A stretch of DNA of 64,000 nt from assembly GCF_001548095.1 (NCBI RefSeq), contig NZ_AP014815.1, positions 2,355,656 to 2,419,655 of the forward strand, given 5' to 3'. The notes under the pieces are model-generated. The model was not told where the DNA came from and ran no database searches. It saw nothing but the letters and a program-made list of their open reading frames with translations. Both the position numbers and the translations under genes were made by a program. Shown one piece after another: positions 34,772 to 37,710 of the stretch. Numbering within the stretch: the stretch's first letter is position 1; each line of letters starts with the position of its first letter. This DNA is from Geminocystis sp. NIES-3708 (GTDB lineage: Bacteria > Cyanobacteriota > Cyanobacteriia > Cyanobacteriales > Cyanobacteriaceae).

Positions 34772-34885
34772 AAATATACAAATTGGATTTGAGTTTTAAC
34801 CCACGTTAATGATAATAAGAGAGTCAGAATTTTCAATTCAGTCTTGATCAGAAATGGGAATAAATGAATATCATAATCGCAATTT

Positions 34886-36115
34886 ATGGAAAATTTAGAG
34901 ATTTCTGTTATCATCAAAATTCTTGGATCTGAAACCCCGTCTTTCTAGGACGGCTTTATATTTAGTGGTTTTAGGTTAAAATCAAGGTAGCCACTAAGAC
35001 CTTAATTGTACAGTGCAACTCCCAGTCGTGGGACACCTGTTGAAAAGATGAGTTACCGAAATGGTACTCGGTGCAATACACTACAGACTCAGCCCCCACA
35101 AGCAAAGATATTAAGGGAGTGAAAAGCATAAACCTAAAAGTAAACTGAAGGCATTAGCCAACAGTGTACAGGCAATTGACACCGCCTTTTGAACTGCTTT
35201 TTGGATTAGTGTTTTGGCACTTTGAACAAATGTAGTTGTTCGAGCAATGACTAGCATTGTGTTAGTTATCTCTTCTAAAGAATCCTCGTGGCTTTAGCCC
35301 GATGGAGTGTCAATCCTACCTATAATCGACCACAACAATTATTTAATTGTTTAAAAGCCTTAAGTCAAATACTACACCCTTCTTTTGAGGTAATTATTAT
35401 TGATGATGGTAGTGTAAACTCGATCGAACATATTATTGTAAATTTTGAGTTTCAACTAAACATCAAATTAATTACACAGAAAAATCAGGGGGCGGCATCC
35501 GCTCGTAATACGGGAGCAAAAGTCGCTCAAGGTGAATATCTTGCTTTTACCGATGATGATTGTTTACCCACAGCAACTTGGCTTACATCTCTAGTAGAAG
35601 TTTTGAGATTATATCCTCATTGTTTAGTAGGAGGTAAAACAGAAAATGCTTTATTTGATAATCCTTATTCTGTAACATCTTAAGCTATTATTGATGTAGT
35701 TTATAGTTACTATCATCAACTTGGGAAAACACTACGTTTTTTTGCTTCCAATAATTTTGCTCTTTCTCGTTTTGATTTTTTAGATTTAGGAGGATTTAAT
35801 GAGAGTTTTTACACTTCGGAAGATCAGGAATTTTGCGATCGCTGGTTGCAAAAAGGATTTGATTTAAAATATGTACCATCTACCTTAGTTTACCATGACC
35901 ATTACTTAACACTAGATAGTTTTTGGCGACAACATTTTAATTATGGTAGAGGAGCATTTAGATTTTATCAAAGTAGAGTTGAACGAGGTTTGCACGGTTT
36001 AAAAATTGAACCACAATTTTATCAAAAGCTGATAACTTATTCCTTTTACCTTGAGTTTTTCACTGCAATTCTCCTTAAAATATTGGTTAATTCTTTTCAT
36101 CGCTCAACTAGCTAA
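34886..36115 (+). pseudogene. Family 2 glycosyltransferase broken by an insertion and a nonsense codon
   Basis: The gene starts at ATG 34886 and reads MENLEISVI up to 34914. Then a 399-bp element (34915-35313) intervenes, and the frame resumes at 35314 with the codon completing Ile10 followed by PTYNRPQQLFNCLKAL. Joining the flanks gives ISVIIPTYNRP, the exact GT2 start motif. Domain text continues (IIIDDGSVNSIEHI, ASARNTGAKVAQGEYLAFTDDDCLP) to a TAA at 35681-35683, which sits in the middle of the domain; the frame is open beyond it for another 143 codons (SNNFALSRFDF, EDQEFCDRW). A CAA-to-TAA change is the likely cause. The protein cannot be made in full. Confidence 0.9.
34915..35313 (+). 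mobile_element. Non-coding 399-bp insertion with IS200/IS605-like ends
   Basis: Bounds come from the interrupted gene: removal of exactly 399 bp rejoins codons 10 and 11. The right end reads GGAGTGTCAA, ending in TCAA as do IS200/IS605-type elements, after an imperfect hairpin around GGCTTTAGCC (35284-35305). Near the left end is CCGTCTTTCTAGGACGG (34937-34953). Further inverted repeats are TTAGTGG/CCACTAA (34962/34991) and CCCA-GTCG-TGGG (35021-35032). There is no target duplication and no transposase or TnpB frame. It is therefore a non-autonomous derivative, and its strongly folded sequence may encode an RNA such as an omega-like RNA (inference). Confidence 0.75.
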
Positions 36116-36156: not shown

Positions 36157-37710
36157 ATGATTATTAACGGACAAAATATTCCACAAGAAGAAATCTTAAA
36201 AGCCGATATTTGTATTGTTGGTGCCGGGGCGGCAGGATTGACTTTAGCTCGACAATTTAATAATACTTCAGTTTCAGTTTTACTTTTAGAGAGTGGTGGT
36301 TTAAAAAATGATCTCATGACTCAATCTTTGGCAGATGGTACAAGTGATGGCGAAATCTACCCTTTTAAAGAATCTCGCTTTCGTTGTTTCGGAGGTTCAA
36401 CTACCCGTTGGAGTGGTATATGTATTCCTTTAGATGAGGGAGATTTTGAACACAAATCATGGTTGACTTATAGCGGTTGGCCTTTTTCTAAGTCCGAACT
36501 TTTACCTTATTATCAAAAAGCTGAAGAAATTTTCGGATTGCCACAAAAAACTTTGAATCTCAGCGATAAATCACCTTTTCATCAATCTCCCTTAAAAACG
36601 AAAATATTAAAATATAGTAATCCCCTTGATTTAGGCAAAAAATATAAGCAGGAAATAATTGAGTCCAAAAATATTAGTCTGATTATTCATAGCAATGTTA
36701 TTGAGTTAATTCCCCATCAGGAAGGGAGATTAATAGAATCTTTAAAGGTGCAAGGAAGTGACGGTAATGGTTTTATCGTTAAAGCTCGTACAGTTATCTT
36801 ATCTACAGGGGGGATGGAAAATGCACGACTTTTATTAGCCTCGAATAGTTATTTTCCTCAAGGTTTAGGCAATCATAATGATTTAGTAGGGCGCTTTTTC
36901 ATGGAACATTATTTCAAAGTTGCGGGGATTTTGCCGATTAATCAAAAATCAGAATTTATCACATCTTTTACTCATCGTTACCCTTTTGGGAATACCTATG
37001 CTCAAGATGTTTTCGGTTTAAGTGATGATTTGCGAGATAGAGAACAACTTTTAAATATTCACTGGCGTATTTGTCGTTACAATCTTTTAGAAGACACTCA
37101 AACTGTTATCACGGCTAAAAAGTTAGCAAAACAATTTTCTCAAGGTGATTTTTCCCAAATGATTCAGCAGTGGCAATTACTATGGCAAGGTGACTTGACT
37201 GTCATACCTCGTTATCTGTGGTGGCATTTTTACAATAGACTCAATCCCTCCGCTCATTTTGATCATATTCGCTTTGTTGGTTTAGTAGAACAAGAGCCAG
37301 ATTTTCACAATCGTATTACTTTATCGTCAAAATGCGATTTTTTAGGACAACCTTTAGTTAATCTTACTTTGAATTTTAGTCAAAAAATGTGGGAAAGTGT
37401 CGATCGATCTATGTCTTGTCTCAGTAAAATTTTATCAGAAAGGGGTTTTGGTCAGTTAGAATATGATTGCGATCGCCTACAACATCTAACTTTCTATGAT
37501 AAAGTTGGTTATCATCCCATGGGTACTACTAGAATGCACCCCAATCCTCGTTATGGAGTAGTTGATGCCAACGGTAAAGTACATGATGTCGATAACTTAT
37601 ACATTGCAGGAAGTTCTATTTTTCCAACAGGAGGGGCGGCAAATCCTACTTTTACGATCGTTGCTTTAGCTTTACGTTTAGCCGATCATCTTTTTCAAAT
37701 TAATCAATAA
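36157..37710 (+). CDS. GMC-family FAD-dependent oxidoreductase
   Basis: A 517-residue flavoprotein. The FAD dinucleotide motif GAGAAG is at residues 22-27 in ICIVGAGAAGLTLARQF, and the second FAD contact FGGSTTRWSG (about 88-97) and the GMC C-terminal block HPMGTTRMHPNP (about 455-466) with SSIFPTGGAANPTFT complete the fold. The active-site pair would be near the HPMG histidine and the following Asn/His. It may oxidise a sugar or alcohol in polysaccharide tailoring. It starts 41 bp after the broken glycosyltransferase and is followed by the FemAB-like gene after 11 bp. Confidence 0.9.
   Translation: MIINGQNIPQEEILKADICIVGAGAAGLTLARQFNNTSVSVLLLESGGLKNDLMTQSLADGTSDGEIYPFKESRFRCFGGSTTRWSGICIPLDEGDFEHKSWLTYSGWPFSKSELLPYYQKAEEIFGLPQKTLNLSDKSPFHQSPLKTKILKYSNPLDLGKKYKQEIIESKNISLIIHSNVIELIPHQEGRLIESLKVQGSDGNGFIVKARTVILSTGGMENARLLLASNSYFPQGLGNHNDLVGRFFMEHYFKVAGILPINQKSEFITSFTHRYPFGNTYAQDVFGLSDDLRDREQLLNIHWRICRYNLLEDTQTVITAKKLAKQFSQGDFSQMIQQWQLLWQGDLTVIPRYLWWHFYNRLNPSAHFDHIRFVGLVEQEPDFHNRITLSSKCDFLGQPLVNLTLNFSQKMWESVDRSMSCLSKILSERGFGQLEYDCDRLQHLTFYDKVGYHPMGTTRMHPNPRYGVVDANGKVHDVDNLYIAGSSIFPTGGAANPTFTIVALALRLADHLFQINQ

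Follow-up and report, generated by a model that had tools for sequence, protein, structure and literature searches.

In ISDra2 the omega-RNA (reRNA) of TnpB overlaps the 3' end of tnpB, and the 3' end of its scaffold is described as forming a pseudoknot with a stretch upstream (PMC10097598). The last ~16 nt of this reRNA are reported to derive from the flank of the transposon (PMC8612924). The element studied here resembles this system in that its core RNA would run to the transposon right end, the flank behind it would be the guide and an upstream loop is complementary to the scaffold 3' end (PMC8612924, PMC10097598); likewise, the TAM would equal the insertion site (PMC8612924). However, no tnpB is present in our element, and a covarying 5' domain precedes its core. 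IS608, according to its description, has the same right cleavage site TCAA, the same guide tetranucleotide GAAT and an insertion 3' of a tetranucleotide, but its target is TTAC (PMC5934647), whereas our element has the target TCAT and carries neither tnpA nor tnpB.

Elements without a transposase gene are known as well. The PATEs of Haloquadratum, transposase-free relatives of IS605-type elements, also have subterminal palindromes, cause no target duplication and are too short for a transposase (PMC3119063). The part of that account drawn on here ascribes no guide RNA to them, whereas the interior of our element is a conserved structured RNA. The RAGATH-18-derived reRNA of IS607 TnpB is, as predicted for our element, a structured RNA guiding a TnpB, but it is described with an upstream TnpB (PMC11061315), and no RAGATH match was found at our element. 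The MITEs of Anabaena sp. 90 are similarly short and multi-copy, some of them lying in pseudogenes, but they are described as type II MITEs, having terminal inverted repeats and lacking a link to an IS (PMC3542288). Judged by titles and abstract openings among the matches listed, no description of our element was found in the literature, and two cyanobacterial MITE papers and a MITE review make no mention of a guide RNA in the portions consulted. Omega-RNAs away from the nuclease gene were reportedly described by Altae-Tran in 2021 as trans-acting IscB omega-RNAs, and Meers is said to have found Geobacillus PATEs in 2023, whose ends lie away from the nuclease gene.

A 399-bp insertion without long ORF and its ends

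The window, i.e. the whole analysed stretch of 64,000 nucleotides from Geminocystis sp. NIES-3708, contains the following features at the insertion:

34886..34914, + strand: 5' fragment of a GT2 gene (MENLEISVI), from its translation and the comparison with the orthologue L158
34911..34914, + strand: TCAT target tetranucleotide in the left flank, found 5' of copies and of TnpB elements; predicted TAM by analogy with ISDra2
34915..35313, + strand: mobile element without long ORF, 399 bp; seven copies in the genome, common ends, empty site in L158
34915..34964, + strand: left end (LE), whose subterminal hairpin is CCGTC-TTTCTAG-GACGG at 34937-34953, similar to the LE of TnpB elements
35280..35313, + strand: right end (RE) consisting of GAAT, a hairpin and GTGTCAA, which would form the 3' end of the RNA scaffold and is identified by its identity to TnpB elements, with GAAT and TCAA as described for IS608
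35314..36115, + strand: 3' part of the GT2 pseudogene, from Pfam and the orthologue L158, with TAA at 35681-35683

The initial annotation had proposed an insertion in a glycosyltransferase gene whose exact removal restores ISVIIPTYNRP. Pfam glycosyltransferase matches are indeed found on both gene pieces flanking the element, and joining 34880-34914 to 35314-35350 by script yields QFMENLEISVIIPTYNRPQQLFNC in frame. The orthologue L158 in genome G020, with 74% identity to the GT2 gene of the window (121 aa searched), has an uninterrupted frame of 295 aa which reads MEKLDISVIIPTYNRPQQLSNC, and downstream of it lies a gene whose start resembles that of the window gene at 36157. Because this uninterrupted orthologue lies in the same context, the 399 bp represent an insertion without target duplication; the proposed insertion is thereby confirmed, and the empty site also bears out the absence of a target duplication at 34915-35313. 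A second lesion is the TAA at 35681-35683, at which L158 has a Q. The GT2 gene of the window is therefore broken twice and, judged by its sequence, is a pseudogene even apart from the insertion. Neither a tnpA nor a tnpB frame lies inside 34915-35313, as had been stated, and among the own-genome copies examined there is no case of the element sequence being part of an intact gene: the window's copy is the only one of seven to overlap an open frame of at least 110 aa.

In its own genome (4.04 Mb) BLAST detects three full-length copies (100, 97 and 89%) and four variant copies which have positions 76-399 in common at 82-83%; all seven right ends agree, and the left ends resemble one another. Matches at E<=1e-4 occur in 39 of 100 genomes (the own genome and 99 relatives), many of them restricted to the ends, and long interior matches beyond the own genome are found in G098, G045, G047, G039, G015, G086, G094 and G054. 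A pattern scan of genome contigs gave eight stretches, including five from Roseofilum acuticapitatum and one from Microseira wollei, the other two being from an Oscillatoriales MAG and the MAG of an uncultured cyanobacterium; the Roseofilum and Oscillatoriales stretches are probably places already found in G047 and G015. Related elements without long ORF are also present in other cyanobacterial families. The covariance model described below finds the RNA in at least five of 388 genomes including that of the window, a lower bound because about six candidates were scored in each genome. Compared with plasmids and phages, copy L051 gave short end matches only (three plasmid records and one phage record). 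Three elements of G419 (L108, L109, L110) are shorter or altered forms.

The left end is recognisable in 19 of 21 copies, with TCAT as 5' neighbour in 18 and TCGT in one; the true left end of L007 likewise lies 3' of TCAT. A right end can be recognised in 16 of the 21 copies, 14 of which terminate with G(A/T)GTGTCAA while L059 and L062 differ; four of the remaining copies run off contig ends and for L060 none was found. Wherever readable in these 21 copies, the ends coincide with 34915 and 35313. The TCAA at the right end and the hairpin at each end, both noted initially, are present and recur in other copies; the right-end hairpin appears in the predicted fold, the left one lies at 34937-34953. 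The proposed assignment to IS200/IS605-type ends also stands, given the TCAT target, the order GAAT-hairpin-TCAA and the ends found likewise on three tnpB-carrying elements in this genome. Like PATEs, the element has subterminal hairpins, is inserted 3' of a fixed tetranucleotide without target duplication and has its ends in common with gene-bearing relatives, namely the three tnpB elements, which themselves are without tnpA.

Some further loci have similar ends. At L018 (G000:C1:1657500-1661500) a left end of ~49 bp resembles those of the TnpB elements; no TnpB frame was seen next to it. L035 and L047 have right ends of the type GAATCC...GAGTGTCAA at which no TnpB-sized frame terminates, and they may represent additional families of elements that differ in their interior.

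The structured RNA of the interior

The interior of the element was divided as follows:

35012..35189, + strand: stretch covered by covariance model R1, from model searches
35025..35099, + strand: 5' RNA domain (helices 1-4) with closing stem 35025-35032/35093-35099, inner stem 35037-35040/35083-35086 and hairpins 35050-35069 and 35071-35081
35136..35185, + strand: putative omega-RNA core, AAAAGTAA, with helix 35145-35147/35162-35164, hairpin 35150-35159 and loop TTGACAC, from homology to the tnpB 3' end
35176..35182, + strand: 5' side of a predicted pseudoknot, TTGACAC, complementary to 35307-35313, from this complementarity and from TnpB counterparts

Out of the 21 copies, 18 entered alignment A1 and 17 alignment A2. 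In the 17 aligned copies a structure of seven helices has 90.0% of 509 cells paired, in comparison to 32.9-45.7% when slid by one to three columns; 18 of its 32 pairs show two-sided change, and none of 500 shuffles attained this paired percentage. The full-length alignment of 18 rows with ten helices gave 88.8% of 753 cells paired versus 34.7-44.5% slid. Pairing was lowest in helices 9 (68%) and 7 (78%), and most pairs of helices 1, 8 and 10 lack two-sided change. Having been drawn by eye on a single sequence of the alignment (L051), the structure is favoured by its origin over the slid controls; it did better than RNAalifold alone, which predicted 21 pairs. The folding energy by itself is unremarkable (z -1.41); the evidence for an RNA is the covariation, which in both alignments supports the structured RNA suggested initially. 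Because G-U cells (29) exceed A-C cells (12), the RNA is probably encoded on the + strand.

The closing stem of the 5' domain shows two-sided change at only one of seven pairs. In the short G419 elements L109 and L110 the stem is kept and the two inner hairpins are missing. Rfam 15 gave no convincing family around the element, with seven chance-level matches below the gathering score, and no match up to E 0.5 in 11 loci. No convincing promoter was found between 34780 and 35500 on both strands, where five promoter-like sites compare with 2.1 (sd 1.6) in shuffles.

Relation to TnpB elements

The proposed comparison with tnpB-bearing elements could be made within the same genome, where three elements of ~1.4 kb (L015-L017) have common ends with ours. 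Their first ~45-50 bp match its left end with 78-82% (at 3846686, 2865756 and 3510351), and their last 41-42 bp match its right end with 95-98%. The open TnpB frames at these loci comprise 429, 427 and 470 aa. L015 is a TnpB according to a Pfam match and to NCBIfam guided_TnpB (165 bits, cut-off 100), and a phmmer comparison of this TnpB with PDB sequences gave no match at E<=0.001. TCAT likewise precedes L015-L017 and the TnpB element L026. No tnpA frame is present in the three same-genome TnpB elements. A single Y1 transposase, L103 of the IS200 type, was found in the genome, and a simple pattern search saw no element-like ends there.

Model R1 was built solely from elements without long ORF. 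In 26 TnpB loci, not all of which are independent, it matched the sense-strand tnpB 3' end in 13 at E<=1, eight of these 13 at E<=0.02 and the best (L127) at 4.9e-7, with four further matches elsewhere (E 0.37-0.97). Applied to 48 loci including 12 RRXRR loci, it found the TnpB element L026 (identical to L125) at E 0.0018, and matched L015 and L017 in three places (E 0.19-0.67). Seven of the 13 tnpB matches cover only model positions ~120-180, and six align with the whole model. In these six rows, which were fitted to the model in an alignment that leans toward structure, the closing stem of the 5' domain pairs in 87.5% and 81.8% of few cells, the inner stem is 58.3% paired, and the two hairpins occur in one row each. 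Going by these rows, some tnpB genes may contain a counterpart of the closing stem.

In a joint alignment of 14 TnpB 3' ends and 18 elements, one common helix is paired in 95 of 96 cells, and 21 cells carry changes on both sides; its two best-scoring slid versions reach 67.7% and 71.9%. In TnpB it is mostly CAC/GTG, CAT/GTG or CAG/CTG, in the elements CTC/GAG or CTG/CAG. One pair is broken by L002, a 97% copy of the own genome; without the near-copies L002 and L005 the count is 90 of 90 cells, and L111 and the TnpB locus L130 are part of neither count. In addition, a 29-base motif from the tnpB 3' end of L026, AGCGGGTTTTTGGCTAACCCTTTAAGGAT, is repeated in two of the three G419 elements (L108, L110).

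Both sides of the predicted pseudoknot are present in 14 of the 18 element rows, 13 of which pair at six to seven of seven positions and one (L059) at three. A TTGRC loop complementary to GTCAA is found at the same position in 13 of 14 TnpB sequences, the exception being L143. Since the 3' side is almost invariant and takes part in transposition as well, covariation is uninformative for this pairing.

By these alignments, the core of the element and the omega-RNA contained in the tnpB 3' end are homologous, and the conserved stretch extends to the transposon right end, itself common to TnpB elements. The omega-like RNA proposed in the initial annotation is supported by this homology and by the complementarity to the terminal GUGUCAA. 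An RNA encoded in cis and overlapping tnpB, as in an ordinary member of the group, was not found; because there is no tnpB frame in the element, we classify it as a stand-alone variant of the omega-RNA.

With close TnpB defined as a best E<=1e-130, a cut chosen after the list had been seen and with genome size not controlled, five of nine relatives with the RNA have a close TnpB, versus 12 of 90 without it (Fisher p = 0.007); presence of the RNA was taken from BLAST, and from the model for G046, and about six candidates were considered for each genome. G045, G046, G047 and G098 have only a distant TnpB (33-41% identity), and in G419 no TnpB was found at E<=1e-40. As these are five of the ten other genomes carrying the RNA, some copies may be orphans or users of other TnpBs.

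Competing explanations and the proposed mode of action

Taken together, we consider it probable that this is a non-autonomous IS200/IS605-type element, similar to MITEs or PATEs, which encodes only a stand-alone TnpB-type omega-RNA. At the level of sequence, it is a repeated element with defined ends common to TnpB elements and a conserved structured RNA in its interior. A plain MITE or PATE whose interior is the decayed relic of a tnpB, with a functionless RNA, would share the homology of the core to the tnpB 3' end; the ends would suffice in principle for mobilisation in trans, and a close TnpB is missing in half of the ten other carriers. We nevertheless regard this as unlikely, as a relic should drift, whereas the interior is kept across cyanobacterial families and covaries across its helices. 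It is quite improbable that the fold was selected as single-stranded DNA in transposition and not as RNA. IS200/IS605 elements do move as single strands (PMC8612924), and since G-T pairs also form in DNA the excess of G-U cells cannot separate the two; but the TnpA of IS608 is described to act on end hairpins and guide tetranucleotides (PMC5934647), the core is homologous to sense-strand tnpB 3' ends, and some of the hairpins are closed by GAAA or GCAA.

The exact restoration of the frame would also be expected from a self-splicing intron or an IStron-like element that restores the host mRNA. However, no group I core was recognised, cmscan found no group I or group II intron match up to E 5 at the element (up to E 0.5 in 11 loci), only one of the seven own-genome copies lies in an open frame of the length given above, and that host gene has another stop, which makes this reading hardly credible. 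An omega-RNA element of the IscB/IsrB (HEARO) type is to be judged just as sceptically. A search of 12 genomes, 11 of them with the interior RNA, did find RRXRR proteins in seven, but there is no RRXRR match in the genome of the window, Rfam has no HEARO match in the element and 11 loci, R1 matches none of the 12 RRXRR loci (L081-L092) at E<=1, and the homology points to tnpB. Two RRXRR frames of ~345 aa in G015 (L105, C71:29431-30498, and L106, C80:68219-69241) are located close to a left-end-like hairpin that is inverted and lies on the opposite strand.

As a non-autonomous element with a TnpB-type omega-RNA, it would be moved as a single strand by an IS200/IS605-type TnpA supplied in trans. 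By analogy with ISDra2, TnpA would excise it from the lagging strand and thereby join TCAT to the right flank. A transcript reading out through the right end would carry this flank as guide and be bound by a TnpB supplied in trans. With TCAT as TAM, the complex of TnpB and RNA would cut the junction of TCAT and flank after excision, and repair from the sister copy would restore the element at the cut empty site. The guide predicted from the ISDra2 reRNA is:

35314..35329, + strand: predicted guide of ~16 nt taken from the host flank, starting with TCCTACCTATAATCGA

With up to three mismatches this guide is found at two places in the own genome, one being its own copy and the other a second GT2 gene. 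In the latter (G000:C1:2444238-2444259; L156, L168) TTAT replaces TCAT, and there is one further mismatch to the guide. For guides derived from conserved protein motifs, several near-matching targets could exist.

A more far-reaching and tentative idea, which we hold to be doubtful, is that of a double parasite. The gene-less element would borrow the TnpA of other elements to move and their TnpB for its retention, and the 5' domain would free the omega-RNA from the tnpB mRNA, perhaps outcompeting the omega-RNA made in cis. This idea is weakened by the possible counterpart of the closing stem in some tnpB genes.

If the preferred reading of a stand-alone omega-RNA is true, a conserved gene-less family carrying an omega-RNA alone would represent a natural separation of the guide from its nuclease. 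It would then become testable whether TnpB is used in trans by other elements, and which role the 5' domain has.
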